This document shows positions 3,263 through 38,901 of a stretch of 40,782 nucleotides of DNA, in pieces; the first letter of the stretch is position 1, and each line of letters opens with the position of its first letter. The translations under genes and the position numbers were made by a program. This DNA is from Thermoproteota archaeon (GTDB taxonomy: Archaea > Thermoproteota > Thermoprotei > Thermoproteales > Thermocladiaceae): assembly GCA_013153275.1 (NCBI GenBank), contig JAADER010000016.1:1-40782 (forward strand), given 5' to 3'. The notes under the pieces were generated by a model. That model saw only the letters and a program-made list of their open reading frames with translations. It did no database searches and was not told where the DNA came from.

Positions 3263-3980
3263 GAAAAGACTGGACGCGATAGCTAGAGCAAGACTACCAG
3301 AAGGATACGACCTAGATAGACTTAGAAATATGCAGAAGATACTGGCATCTAGGGTAGTAGAGAGAGACGTGGTCCAGGACCCAGAGAAGATATGCGGAAT
3401 AGATCTAGCATATGTGAAAGAGAAAGGGAAGGAGATAGGGATAGCATGTGCAGTAGTATGTAACAGACATGGAGAGATAATAGACAGATCATGTAGAGCA
3501 GTAAACATAGAGTTTCCATATATACCTACATTGCTCTCACTAAGAGAGCTAAGACCCATGGTGGTAGCATTCAGATCGCTCAGAGAGAGACCTGATATAG
3601 TAATGATAGATGGTCACGGTAAAGCGCACCCATACAGGCTAGGCATAGCTTCGCATTTTGGAGTAGTTATGAAGGTTCCCACAATAGGATGCGCAAAGTC
3701 GTTACTATATGGAGAGCTCAGCAACTGTAGAGAGGACCAGTGTGACATAGTTGACCCAGAGAACGGGGAGATCATAGGGAGAGCATTAAAACACTATAAC
3801 AAGTACGTATATGTAAGCGTGGGAAACCTAGTAACATTAGATACTGCATGTAGAGTAGTCAGGGAGATGCTTAGGACTAGGTCGCAGATGCCGCTACCGA
3901 TACTCTATGCTCATAATATGTGTAATGAATATAAGAGGAGGGTGATAAGAGGAACGACAGATATAGAGAGATTCTTATGA
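3249..3980 (+). CDS. nfi: Endonuclease V
   Basis: A 243-residue enzyme that cleaves DNA (or RNA) near deaminated adenine (inosine). Hallmarks visible: GIDLAY (metal-binding Asp 52), EFPYIPTLLSLRE (wedge PYIP at 90-93 and Glu 100), the DGHGKAHPYRLGIASHFG block (Asp 121) and PTIGCAKS. Start is GTG 3249, inside the 3' end of the translin gene; no ATG start fits without losing the N-terminal helix. Stop overlaps the next gene by 4 nt (ATGA). High growth temperature makes deamination repair important, in keeping with the organism type inferred. Confidence 0.95.
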   Translation: MKRSRKRLDAIARARLPEGYDLDRLRNMQKILASRVVERDVVQDPEKICGIDLAYVKEKGKEIGIACAVVCNRHGEIIDRSCRAVNIEFPYIPTLLSLRELRPMVVAFRSLRERPDIVMIDGHGKAHPYRLGIASHFGVVMKVPTIGCAKSLLYGELSNCREDQCDIVDPENGEIIGRALKHYNKYVYVSVGNLVTLDTACRVVREMLRTRSQMPLPILYAHNMCNEYKRRVIRGTTDIERFL

Positions 3981-4420
3981 ATGTAAAATACGTTATTCTA
4001 TACAAGCTCAAGAACAGGAAAAACATAGAGGACATAGTGAACATATGTAGAAGACTAAACATTGAAGTAATATACATACCAAGAGAGGACTCAGAATACG
4101 TTCCTGAGAACGTGCAGATCTCTAGAGATATATATGAGATCGTTCACGGGCTAGAAGATAACGTCAGCTTTATAGTTCTAGAGACGTATGGAGACAAGTA
4201 TCTCACAGAGATAGATCTTGGAGAGAACATATGTGTTATAGTTGGCGCAGAGGATACAGGAATCCCAGAGATAGAGATCAATAAGCTTCCTCGAGACCGC
4301 ACGCATGTCGTTAAGATACCTATGGGAGTATATGGAGCAAGCTATAACGTCGTGACAAGCCTAATAATGATGCTTACAGAATGCTTAATTAGAACATATG
4401 ATGAAGGTATCCTAGACTGA
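3977..4420 (+). CDS. SPOUT-superfamily (SpoU/TrmH-like) protein
   Basis: A 147-residue protein whose C-terminal half has the knot signature of SPOUT RNA 2'-O-methyltransferases: VIVGAEDTGIPE (residues ~87-98, motif 2) followed by VVKIPMGVYGASYNVVTS (motif 3, with Tyr where SpoU enzymes usually have Leu). It is shorter than typical TrmH proteins and lacks their N-terminal RNA-binding part. The usual motif 1 Asn/Arg is not obvious, so activity is unproven. ATG overlaps the endonuclease V stop. The stop codon lies inside the D' box of a C/D guide RNA at 4398-4445, a curious neighbour for a putative 2'-O-methyltransferase. Confidence 0.75.
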   Translation: MNVKYVILYKLKNRKNIEDIVNICRRLNIEVIYIPREDSEYVPENVQISRDIYEIVHGLEDNVSFIVLETYGDKYLTEIDLGENICVIVGAEDTGIPEIEINKLPRDRTHVVKIPMGVYGASYNVVTSLIMMLTECLIRTYDEGILD

Positions 4421-4445
4421 GAGATGCTGAAAACCCGGAAACTGA
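4398..4445 (+). ncRNA. C/D box sRNA overlapping a gene junction
   Basis: Complete C/D layout in 48 nt: C box ATGATGA (4398-4404, exact), 12-nt guide aggtatcctaga, D' box CTGA (4417-4420, exact), 3-nt spacer gag, C' box ATGCTGA (4424-4430, one mismatch), 11-nt guide aaacccggaaa, D box CTGA (4442-4445, exact). The stop codon of the SPOUT gene is within D' and the ATG called for the next gene is the first three bases of C'. A TATA-like CTAATAATG at 4361-4369 would start transcription at about 4391. Predicted targets read UCUAGGAUACCU (methyl on G5) and UUUCCGGGUUU (methyl on C5); I could not place them in rRNA from memory. Confidence 0.8.
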
Positions 4446-5326
4446 ACATAATATATGTAGAACCATTCGACATATTCTACCCTAGCGTACTATTAAGAAC
4501 AGCATACTCCGCATTAGGAAAATCCTTAACATCATTTACATTAATAACTCGAAGGAGAGTGAGGCTAGGAGACATAGCAAGATACTCTCGAGTACCTATA
4601 CCACGACTCAGAGAGATATTAAGTATACGTGAGGAACACGTAAACGTAAGTACAGGAGTACTAGTATCTACCAATAAGGACATCACGACTAGTAGCATAG
4701 GTAGGATAATGAAGTTCAAAGAGATGGAAGAGTTAACAATAGTGGTAGATGAGACAGGAGAAATGCGACAAGACGGATTAGAGGTTTTCAGGACAGGATT
4801 CTTTGACCATCCTGCATATGAGGCAGTAGCACTCTTATACATACTCTATATTAGAGATCTTGCCTTAGTTAAGAAATTTAAAGAGCATAAAAGTATACCA
4901 GACATAGATTATGGTGAACTCATATATTTCATGAGAAATATAGCTAGCTCAATATCGATAATGAATAATTACCCAATTATAGACCCGAGATCAGTAGTAT
5001 ACACTCTACGTCACGTCTTTAGAAATCATAACATGTTGCTCGATCTTGCAAAAGCTGAGATAGGTATAGACTATTCTGATAATAGAGTTATAGAGAAGGT
5101 GATAGTTGACATATATAGGTATAGGGACCTCAGATATATTAGGACGGAGACTATTCTATTCGACGGTGAGCGTCTAGATACTATATTTGTGACGCGTAGT
5201 GGAGCATTAACGAGGGTCTCTCTCTATGTTGATTCTGATAGAAGAGAGGTATGTGTAGACGCTAATGTATGTGTGTCTTCTAGGAGGGAGGACATGTCGG
5301 AGGAGCTATTATCGTTCCTGTTCTGA
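4424..5326 (+). CDS. Conserved-looking protein of unknown function (300 aa)
   Basis: A 300-residue protein I do not recognise. It begins with a hydrophobic strand IIYVEPFDIFYPSVLLRTA, contains no Cys cluster or known nucleotide-binding loop, and the middle is helical with many Ile/Tyr/Arg residues. The C-terminal part holds a pair of short strands with VCVDANVCV. The ATG at 4424 coincides with the C' box of a guide RNA, so the start may be an accident of that element; the next in-frame Met is far downstream (about residue 91), so a non-ATG start remains possible. Three nt separate it from the SPOUT gene, giving an operon of at least four genes. Confidence 0.65.
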   Translation: MLKTRKLNIIYVEPFDIFYPSVLLRTAYSALGKSLTSFTLITRRRVRLGDIARYSRVPIPRLREILSIREEHVNVSTGVLVSTNKDITTSSIGRIMKFKEMEELTIVVDETGEMRQDGLEVFRTGFFDHPAYEAVALLYILYIRDLALVKKFKEHKSIPDIDYGELIYFMRNIASSISIMNNYPIIDPRSVVYTLRHVFRNHNMLLDLAKAEIGIDYSDNRVIEKVIVDIYRYRDLRYIRTETILFDGERLDTIFVTRSGALTRVSLYVDSDRREVCVDANVCVSSRREDMSEELLSFLF

Positions 5327-17914: not shown

Positions 17915-18790
17915 ATGTCTCTCCCTGATATAACGATAGACCACATAAGAGATTTCATAGTAGAGAACGCATTTCGTATAGAGGACCTACTCAAGAGCGA
18001 GAAGCAGCTCGTAGAGATAAATAGCGATAAGATAGTAGTGGTAGGAGATCTTCACGGTGACTATCTATCTCTATGTAACATAGTATCGAGATATAGTCCT
18101 TCTGAGTGGACGATCCTCTTCCTAGGAGACTATGTGGATCGTGGCGAGTACCAGATAGAGACTATCACGAAAGTGCTAGAACTTAAAGTAAAGCATCCTG
18201 ATAAAGTGTTTCTCTTGAGAGGTAATCATGAGTCACCGTCTATGAATATCACGTATGGTTTTGTTGCAGAGCTTCAGACAAAGTTCAAAGGCGAGATACA
18301 GCTGATGTCACTTATATATAGCTTCCTCGAGTACAAGGTATTCTGCAACCTACCCTATGCTGCATTAATCAACAATGAGATATTTGCAGTACATGGAGGT
18401 CTCGCAAAAGGACTAGAAAAGCCAGATGATGTGAAAAATATTCCGAAATGTGATGCAATGCCAAGTAATCCCATAGCCTTTCAATTACTATGGAATGACC
18501 CTTCAGATGAGGTAACAGGTTTTGAACCAAATGAGCTGAGAGGAGGCTGCCTTCAGGACGACCTCTGTATATATCTGTGGGGGCCGGACGTGACCAAGAG
18601 TTTCCTTGAAAAGAACTCGTTAAAAATGATAATTAGGGCTCATGAATATACTGGACCCGGATACAAGTGGAACCATAATGGTAAGGTGCTTACAGTATTC
18701 AGCTCCTGTGCGGGACCGTACAAATTTGTGAGACCAAAGATAGCTATAATAACCCGAGGAGAGGTAAAACTAGAAGACGCTAGAAAATGA
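17915..18790 (+). CDS. PPP-family serine/threonine protein phosphatase (PP1/PP2A-like)
   Basis: A 291-residue phosphoprotein phosphatase with all PPP signatures in order: GDLHGDY (44-50), GDYVDRG (71-77), LRGNHES (101-107), FAVHGGL and IRAHEY. The Asp, His and Asn residues bind two catalytic metals, and Arg residues of GDYVDRG and RGNHE bind phosphate. Archaeal members dephosphorylate proteins, much like eukaryotic PP1/PP2A. TATA-like TATATAATAAAT is ~26 nt upstream of a transcript start near 17911. The stop codon TGA (18788-18790) is inside the C box of a guide RNA. Confidence 0.95.
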   Translation: MSLPDITIDHIRDFIVENAFRIEDLLKSEKQLVEINSDKIVVVGDLHGDYLSLCNIVSRYSPSEWTILFLGDYVDRGEYQIETITKVLELKVKHPDKVFLLRGNHESPSMNITYGFVAELQTKFKGEIQLMSLIYSFLEYKVFCNLPYAALINNEIFAVHGGLAKGLEKPDDVKNIPKCDAMPSNPIAFQLLWNDPSDEVTGFEPNELRGGCLQDDLCIYLWGPDVTKSFLEKNSLKMIIRAHEYTGPGYKWNHNGKVLTVFSSCAGPYKFVRPKIAIITRGEVKLEDARK

Positions 18791-18835
18791 TGAGAACTCC
18801 TGATACAGACCTGTGACGATGCCGTCCCAGTCTGA
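18787..18835 (+). ncRNA. C/D box sRNA overlapping a gene junction; guide fits the 23S P-loop
   Basis: Layout in 49 nt: C box ATGATGA (18787-18793, exact), 12-nt guide gaactcctgata, D' box CAGA (18806-18809, one mismatch), 3-nt spacer cct, C' box GTGACGA (18813-18819, one mismatch), 12-nt guide tgccgtcccagt, D box CTGA (18832-18835, exact). The second guide pairs with ACUGGGGCGGUA of archaeal 23S helix 80 (10 Watson-Crick pairs and 2 G-U), placing the methyl on G2251 (E. coli numbering) by the N+5 rule; this rRNA sequence is recalled, not checked. The phosphatase stop lies in C and the next gene's GTG is the start of C'. TATA-like CTATAATAA at 18744-18752. Confidence 0.82.
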
Positions 18836-19211
18836 ACGAAAGATAATCTGCAGAGAAGATATGAGATATATCTGTATGAAAATGCTCGAACCAAGGAAAT
18901 GGAAGCAGGCCATACTATCATTAATCTTTCTAATGTTCTACGCTATACTAATGCTGAGCCTAGGCCTCCTTCTTAACGCTGTAAACGTACCTCTGACTAG
19001 TGTTTTTGTTGGCCTGATTATGATCATCGTGCCGCTAATGATAGCAATGATTATATGCTCAGTTATTCATACGTTCTTTGCTATATCTGATGCACGTAAA
19101 TTTAAGAACACGTTGGTCTGCTCAAGATGTCTGAGGGTGTGGATATACATATCCTGTAATGCATCTCCTAGATACTGCCCGGCCTGTGGTGGCCCTCTCA
19201 ATAGACCCTAG
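18813..19211 (+). CDS. Two-helix membrane protein with C-terminal zinc ribbon
   Basis: A 132-residue protein: a cytoplasmic N-terminus, two membrane helices (~residues 34-56 and 63-90), and a C-terminal zinc ribbon CSRCLRVW...YCPACGGPL (two CxxC pairs, ~103-128). Function unknown; zinc ribbons on small membrane proteins are common in archaea. The GTG 18813 start is doubtful because those bases are the C' box of a guide RNA; ATG 18819 or ATG 18861 are alternatives. The next gene downstream also joins a zinc ribbon to a membrane helix, so the two may work at the same site. Confidence 0.7.
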   Translation: MTMPSQSERKIICREDMRYICMKMLEPRKWKQAILSLIFLMFYAILMLSLGLLLNAVNVPLTSVFVGLIMIIVPLMIAMIICSVIHTFFAISDARKFKNTLVCSRCLRVWIYISCNASPRYCPACGGPLNRP

Positions 19212-19264: not shown

Positions 19265-19948
19265 ATGTCTACAAAGAGATCTGTAGAGAAACTTAGATGT
19301 CCACTATGTGGAACCTTGGTAATTGTTAAAGGAAGTGTGAAATACTGCCCACATTGTGGCTTCCCAGTGCATGAATATATTAAAGCAATATCCATGTATC
19401 CAGAGCTCGCAAAGCTTGACCCTGAAACTGTGATCACCGTATATCGCAACAGGGAGTCATCAACTAAAAAGAGGAAGATCGTTCTCATCAGTTTAGGAGT
19501 GATAGCGTTACTTCTTCTCTTCTCCTACCTAGGCTACGTTATCTCCCAGTATGTTATCGCTAAAGAATGTAGAGTCACGGTCTCCGATATAGAGATAGAG
19601 CATATTGGTGTTACTGGAGCGGATCTGCTGGTAGTCCTTGAAATATATAATCCTAATAATATTCCTGCAAGGATACCTGCAATATCTTACGAAGTCCTGA
19701 TAGACGGCATATATGTAGGAACAGGATATATCAACAATATAGAGGTTCCACCACACTCTACATGGTATGCAAGATCTACATTCAGATTAAGGTACTCGGG
19801 AGCTATAAGCGCGATCATCGACATAATTAGGGAAAAACTCTTCCATAGAAGGAGCATTAATGTGACGATCGAGGGCACTGCTAACGTCAATGTTGGACCT
19901 TCAAGCTTCTCGCTTCAATTCTCCAGAACTAAGGTTGTAGACCCCTAA
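19265..19948 (+). CDS. Zinc ribbon - membrane helix - LEA2-like protein
   Basis: A 227-residue protein with an unusual order: an N-terminal zinc ribbon CPLCGTLV...YCPHCGFPV (12-36), a charged linker, one membrane helix (~72-92, IVLISLGVIALLLLFSYLGYVI), then an outside domain with the LEA2/WHy pattern LEIYNPNNIPARIPAISYEV, DGIYVGTGYI and VPPHSTW (about 120-165). LEA2 domains are beta-sandwiches linked to desiccation or stress tolerance in plants and found widely in archaea. The domain order places the ribbon in the cytoplasm and the LEA2 domain outside the cell. Confidence 0.78.
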   Translation: MSTKRSVEKLRCPLCGTLVIVKGSVKYCPHCGFPVHEYIKAISMYPELAKLDPETVITVYRNRESSTKKRKIVLISLGVIALLLLFSYLGYVISQYVIAKECRVTVSDIEIEHIGVTGADLLVVLEIYNPNNIPARIPAISYEVLIDGIYVGTGYINNIEVPPHSTWYARSTFRLRYSGAISAIIDIIREKLFHRRSINVTIEGTANVNVGPSSFSLQFSRTKVVDP

Positions 19949-27695: not shown

Positions 27696-27744
27696 GTGAT
27701 GAGCGCACCCTTAAATGAGAGATGATTAGACCGCCAGCGTCTGA
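27696..27744 (+). ncRNA. C/D box sRNA, intergenic
   Basis: Complete layout in 49 nt: C box GTGATGA (27696-27702, exact), 12-nt guide gcgcacccttaa, D' box ATGA (27715-27718, one mismatch), 3-nt spacer gag, C' box ATGATTA (27722-27728, one mismatch), 12-nt guide gaccgccagcgt, D box CTGA (27741-27744, exact). A TATA box lies at the right distance upstream. The guides predict 2'-O-methylation within UUAAGGGUGCGC (G5) and ACGCUGGCGGUC (U5). I could not place these targets from memory; they may be in rRNA or tRNA. Confidence 0.82.
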
Positions 27745-38853: not shown

Positions 38854-38901
38854 TCAGTAAGGGGTGTGCGATCACCTCTCTCTTTAAAGGAATCTCATCA
38901 C
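38854..38901 (-). ncRNA. C/D box sRNA, intergenic; guide fits 16S rRNA
   Basis: On the minus strand: C box GTGATGA (38901-38895, exact), 12-nt guide gattcctttaaa, D' box GAGA (38882-38879, degenerate), 3-nt spacer gag, C' box GTGATCG (38875-38869, two mismatches), 11-nt guide cacacccctta, D box CTGA (38857-38854, exact). The first guide pairs with CUUAAAGGAAUU of the archaeal 16S region at 910-921 (10 Watson-Crick pairs and one G-U, mismatch only at the base next to D'), predicting a methyl near A914 (E. coli numbering, recalled). AGTTTTATAG, complement of 38927-38936, is a fitting TATA box. Confidence 0.75.

Follow-up and report, generated by a model that had tools for sequence, protein, structure and literature searches.

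At the end of a phosphatase gene in a Thermoproteota archaeon, 49 nucleotides (positions 18787-18835 of the window, by which we mean the whole 40,782 nt stretch of DNA that was analysed) carry boxes like those of a C/D box sRNA. This raises the question of whether an sRNA is encoded there and, if so, which ribosomal RNA bases it addresses. The original prediction was that of a C/D box sRNA with a guide for G2251 of the 23S rRNA. G2251 lies in the P-loop, where it contacts the CCA end of the P-site tRNA, and it is methylated by the protein RlmB in bacteria and by a snoRNA-guided complex in eukaryotes. Based on the analysis below, we believe it very probable that the locus encodes a dual-guide archaeal C/D box sRNA, with a D guide that would direct 2'-O-methylation of G2251 and a D' guide that would direct it to a site 26 nt downstream.

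Anatomy of the sRNA

We observed the following features in this part of the window:

17915-18790, plus strand: gene for a PPP-type serine/threonine phosphatase of 291 aa (PF00149, 101 bits)
18737-18756, plus strand: TATA-like block AAGATAGCTATAATAACCCG inside the coding end of the phosphatase gene, a candidate sRNA promoter
18787-18793, plus strand: C box ATGATGA, read in the sequence and containing the phosphatase stop codon TGA (18788-18790); its TGATGA is invariant in 24 family members
18794-18805, plus strand: D' guide GAACTCCTGATA, 12 nt, pairing with 23S UAUCAGGGGUGC; identical in G001 and G002
18806-18809, plus strand: D' box CAGA, degenerate, with CTGA, AGGA, GGGA, TCGA or TTGA elsewhere in the family
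18813-18819, plus strand: C' box GTGACGA, its TGA invariant in the 24 members
18820-18831, plus strand: D guide TGCCGTCCCAGT, 12 nt, pairing with 23S helix 80 GCUGGGGCGGCA, with G2251 (E. coli numbering) as the target base
18832-18835, plus strand: D box CTGA, invariant in the 24 members

The order of the elements is ATGATGA-GAACTCCTGATA-CAGA-CCT-GTGACGA-TGCCGTCCCAGT-CTGA, with a spacer of 3 nt between D' and C'. The RNA measures 49 nt from C to D box and is predicted from its sequence to reach about 53 nt with short ends. It has the RUGAUGA C box, the CUGA D box and the degenerate internal D' and C' boxes a few nucleotides apart that mark this class, along with guides of about 12 nt (both are 12) and a total length within about 50-70 nt. 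When this C/D'/C'/D motif definition was applied to the 40.8-kb window it gave 3 matches, whereas 600 random windows that kept the trinucleotide make-up of the window had 0.002 on average and never more than 1. For the sRNA folded in isolation a hairpin is predicted (z -3.1), in which the D guide would be inaccessible. By eye this hairpin is not kept in the sister species, and we treat such self-folding as probably incidental.

Conservation across the order

A sequence model, R1, was built from the 24 members, in whose alignment TGATGA, the GCC and CCCAG of the D guide and CTGA are invariant, and was searched against 45 genomes of the order (Thermoproteales-type) at E<=0.01. It matches 40 of the 45, nearly all in single copy, and all 25 of the genomes with at least 90% completeness, although one of these, G026, is included only through a weak partial match that comes from a differently built sRNA. 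The wider class yielded only two further weak partial matches.

The loci of the relatives were located through the phosphatase gene. The sRNA lies no more than 150 bases from that gene in 17 of 37 genomes and no more than 7 kb away in 14 more (31/37 in total). In the sister species G001 and G002 it overlaps the phosphatase stop as it does in the window, in G004 it sits just past the stop, and in G033, which belongs to another family, the stop again falls inside the C box. The sRNA is on the opposite strand, just behind the phosphatase gene, in the g4 genomes (Vulcanisaeta-type), it is 2.7-6 kb from the gene in Pyrobaculum-type genomes, and in other genomes it is on a separate contig. Over the phosphatase gene and the sRNA together, the longest run identical in G000, G001 and G002 is 25 nt long (18785-18809) and spans the C box, the D' guide and the D' box.

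Because R1 matches 40 of the 45 genomes of the order, we regard the C/D sRNA reading as settled. Judged from sequence, an archaeal C/D box sRNA of canonical form lies at 18787-18835 and a chance motif is excluded, and in this respect the original prediction holds: the boxes are those it gave, the random windows contain 0.002 such motifs on average, and the family extends across the order. The idea that a C/D-like motif arose by chance at this junction would be helped by the resemblance of the stop and start codons UGA and GUG to the boxes, and the Rfam matches of this RNA are all below threshold. Set against the random windows, the conservation across the order, opposite-strand and distant copies included, and the covariation of guide and target described below, we consider this explanation extremely improbable.

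The same placements bear on the idea that the motif is an mRNA K-turn through which L7Ae would control the phosphatase or the downstream ORF, with the guide match being incidental. The C box does overlap the phosphatase stop, and L7Ae binding has been suggested to regulate archaeal mRNAs (PMC5539422). Against this, the RNA is found on the opposite strand in g4, 2.7-6 kb away in the Pyrobaculum-type genomes and on another contig in others, and the downstream ORF is not conserved in the sister loci compared. We consider a K-turn very unlikely, and an sRNA with guides to the 23S rRNA remains the preferred reading.

The D guide and G2251

We found no 23S or 16S gene in this 88.6%-complete assembly and none in the genus mates either (four were searched for 23S); the 23S rRNAs of relatives served as a proxy for that of the window organism. 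The helix 80 segment GGCUGGGGCGGCACACC is identical in 20/20 of these. Against GCUGGGGCGGCA in the relatives' 23S, the D guide is paired at 12/12 positions, two of them G:U. Counting from the D box, guide base five sits opposite the second G of GGGG, so that the N+5 rule points to E. coli G2251. The original prediction had the helix and the base right, while the target letters that it gave, ACUGGGGCGGUA, are not those of archaea, which have GCUGGGGCGGCA.

Shuffled D guides equal the rRNA match score in 2.2% of cases (33/1500, with 16S plus 23S searched), so the 12-nt match by itself is moderate evidence. It gains weight because the guide is conserved and because the base is one known to be modified. 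The usual numbering offset, as we take it, makes it doubtful that Gm1950 of Haloarcula is E. coli Gm2251, and that equivalence, given in PMC11542601, was set aside. Gm at the G2251 base is known from bacteria and eukaryotes (PMC11542601).

Could the RNA be a true C/D sRNA but one with a main target other than helix 80 for its D guide, or one that works mainly as a folding chaperone? The D guide is changed in some members. The D' guide binds one strand of the stem of the following hairpin, and the two guides together would thereby hold about 40 nt of the 23S rRNA open. The altered D guides, GCCAAGCCCCAG and GCCATGCCCCAG, were seen in six g4-/g3-type members tested (G006, G007, G010, G013, G020 and G023). 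They read GCCAAG- or GCCATG-CCCCAG, and in a gap-free alignment keep seven pairs over the target base and lose the rest. At these altered-guide loci (L027, L028, L029, L032, L035 and L040) there are two extra bases, and a C replaces the wobble U. Against another main role, for the window genus and most families the top 23S match of the D guide is helix 80 (G000, G001, G004 with proxy 23S, G015 and nine Thermoproteaceae-type genomes), and the base reached in N+5 register carries a 2'-O-methyl group in bacteria and eukaryotes (PMC11542601). We consider a different main target or a mainly chaperoning role quite unlikely, and favor G2251 as the base to which the D guide would direct methylation.

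In three genomes the G2251 guide, as AGCCG(U/A)CCCAG, is placed between the C and D' boxes of minus-strand sRNAs that have another build (L137 in G056, L138 in G061 and L139 in G026). Around this guide these sRNAs read GTGATGA-AGCCGTCCCAGT-CTGA, and their second conserved guide ends CTCG(T/C)GACGA(T/A/G) before CTGA. These cases suggest that the G2251 guide may persist, or be acquired anew, as the remainder of the RNA changes.

The D' guide and a probable second target

Neither the D' guide nor the conservation across the order was part of the original prediction. The D' guide GAACTCCTGATA pairs with 23S UAUCAGGGGUGC at 11/12 positions, one of them G:U, and the N+5 base of its target is 26 nt 3' of G2251. 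At the N+5 position of the guide, all of the f1 members tested have T, opposite a target A, and all of the f2 members tested have C, opposite a target G. In G006 there is a second fitting change, with T7 opposite a target A where others have G. The covariation at the N+5 position amounts to one evolutionary event separating the two families, but it falls on precisely the base that the rule predicts. The second target appears less sure in several f2 members, whose box register differs or whose D' guide matches over a short stretch.

In Pyrobaculum, dual guides usually address positions less than 100 nt apart (Lui et al. 2018, cited after PMC7994747). Here the D' guide would pair with the 3' strand of the hairpin neighboring helix 80, where it would probably lead to methylation of the A of UAUC(A/G), which is a G in Thermoproteaceae-type genomes, and/or hold this segment open during folding.

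The gene junction and a candidate promoter

The best PDB matches of the phosphatase are calcineurin, PP1 and PP2A chains (2.4e-45). As had been predicted, its stop codon lies in the C box, and this arrangement is kept in G001 and G002 and recurs in G033. An overlap with the 3' end of a gene is reported for 25% of archaeal C/D sRNA genes, and almost half of these overlaps place the stop in the C box (Tripp et al. 2017, cited after PMC7994747). The overlap at this locus is real but ordinary. We take it to be a consequence of packing, as UGA occurs in the C box.

The other half of the proposed junction, in which the GTG of C' would be the start of the next gene, is not supported by the comparison. 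In G001 and G002 the C' box is ATGAAGA, and the neighboring genes differ and are convergent. In the window this GTG opens the ORF 18813-19211, encoding the 132-aa P0002, as called by the ORF finder; four in-frame ATGs follow soon after it, and P0002 has no homologue in the sister loci compared. We rejected the GTG as a gene start and take it to be an ORF-finder start. The products of 18813-19211 and 19265-19948 (plus strand) are predicted to be membrane proteins, each with cysteine pairs at one end like those of zinc ribbons, and the protein of 19265-19948 has a LEA_2 domain.

Upstream of the sRNA, the 20 nt of the TATA-like block (18737-18756) are the second-longest run identical in G000, G001 and G002, with other runs in the gene reaching at most 11. 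Among 28 members compared, the sequence is richest in A+T about 24-31 nt before the C box, where most relatives have TTTAAA-type boxes; the block in the window is at about -43 to -35. This suggests that the sRNA has its own promoter in the end of the phosphatase gene, which would give a short leader, and that transcription may start from a TATA box within that gene.

Relationship to known C/D RNAs

In an Rfam scan, 18787-18835 did not reach curated thresholds. The sR9 family scores 25.7 of 36 bits (E=0.002), below the gathering score but in exact line-up on the sRNA, and sR5 scores 21.8 of 40 bits (E=0.0035), again short of its gathering threshold. The window RNA is a C/D RNA outside these two families. 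In a permissive scan it aligns over its full length with several archaeal C/D families, and also with the half of SNORD31 that bears UACCGCCCCAGU before CUGA; the SNORD31 consensus has the same guide, UACCGCCCCAGUCUGA. In SNORD31/U31 (RF00089), as in the window sRNA, the guide directly upstream of the D box is UACCGCCCCAGU, and the N+5 rule leads to the same target base, 28S G4166 (PMC6466398). Unlike the window sRNA, SNORD31 is longer and has a different second half; the likeness is one of guide.

Guides for G2251 have already been predicted in archaea. Dennis et al. 2015 (PMC4644070) predicted C/D sRNAs for 23S G2251 in three organisms, at alignment position G2520. Compared by description, they resemble the window sRNA in target base, box architecture and location in the domain V methylation hotspot. 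The window genus is not among the seven archaea of that study as listed in PMC7994747. That source also describes the families of C/D sRNAs that Lui et al. 2018 gave for six Pyrobaculum species, and because the window family also occurs in Pyrobaculum-type genomes, it is probably one of those 110 families. Compared to the Pyrobaculum families, the window family is extended here to Vulcanisaeta-, Caldivirga- and Thermocladium-type genomes and to the window genus. In bacteria, RlmB modifies the same base as a protein enzyme without an RNA guide. The window sRNA joins a known RNA class and is no new kind of system.

Assembly and possible role

The genome encodes homologues of Nop5 (2.7e-70) and L7Ae (3.4e-31). 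Fibrillarin was not found in this 88.6%-complete assembly and was found in the genus mates G001, G003 and G004. The gene next to Nop5 was considered as fibrillarin and rejected, as it encodes a VTT-domain membrane protein. We infer that the RNA of about 53 nt would bind L7Ae, Nop5 and fibrillarin, and that pairing of the D guide with helix 80 would lead to 2'-O-methylation of G2251.

G2251 might instead be methylated here by a SpoU-type (RlmB-like) protein, with the sRNA being redundant. A PF00588 protein above the cut-off is encoded in the same window (3977-4420), and another in the genome is just below the cut-off. However, the protein in the window, at 147 aa, does not reach the length of RlmB and gave no match to an RlmB equivalog, and single-domain SpoU proteins are known to act mostly on tRNA. 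We give this alternative a small probability, and guidance by the sRNA remains the preferred route.

More tentatively, and with rather less than even confidence, the two guides may be a conserved pair that brackets the P-loop helix together with the hairpin after it, leads to methylation of both and keeps this part of the 23S rRNA open during assembly. The G2251 guide would have been kept or regained but moved, being on the D side in most of the order and on the D' side in G026, G056 and G061.

An order-wide archaeal G2251 guide with a covarying second guide would make a clear test for the RNA-guided route at the archaeal P-loop. The family also allows guide retention, relocation between D and D', and gene overlap to be followed, and it is a clean added example of an sRNA box that shares a stop codon.

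Other C/D-like candidates in the window

The SpoU-family (PF00588) 2'-O-methyltransferase-like protein of 147 aa (3977-4420, plus strand) ends at another candidate C/D sRNA. This candidate (4398-4446, plus strand), which the original prediction had named as well, reads ATGATGA-AGGTATCCTAGA-CTGA-GAG-ATGCTGA-AAACCCGGAAA-CTGA, and has good box spacing and weak matches to rRNA (proxy 16S/23S). A further C/D-like candidate lies between ORFs at 27696-27744 (plus strand), as GTGATGA-GCGCACCCTTAA-ATGA-GAG-ATGATTA-GACCGCCAGCGT-CTGA. On the minus strand, there is a candidate at 38854-38901, whose D' guide GATTCCTTTA is complementary over 10 nt to TAAAGGAATT in the 16S locus of a relative.
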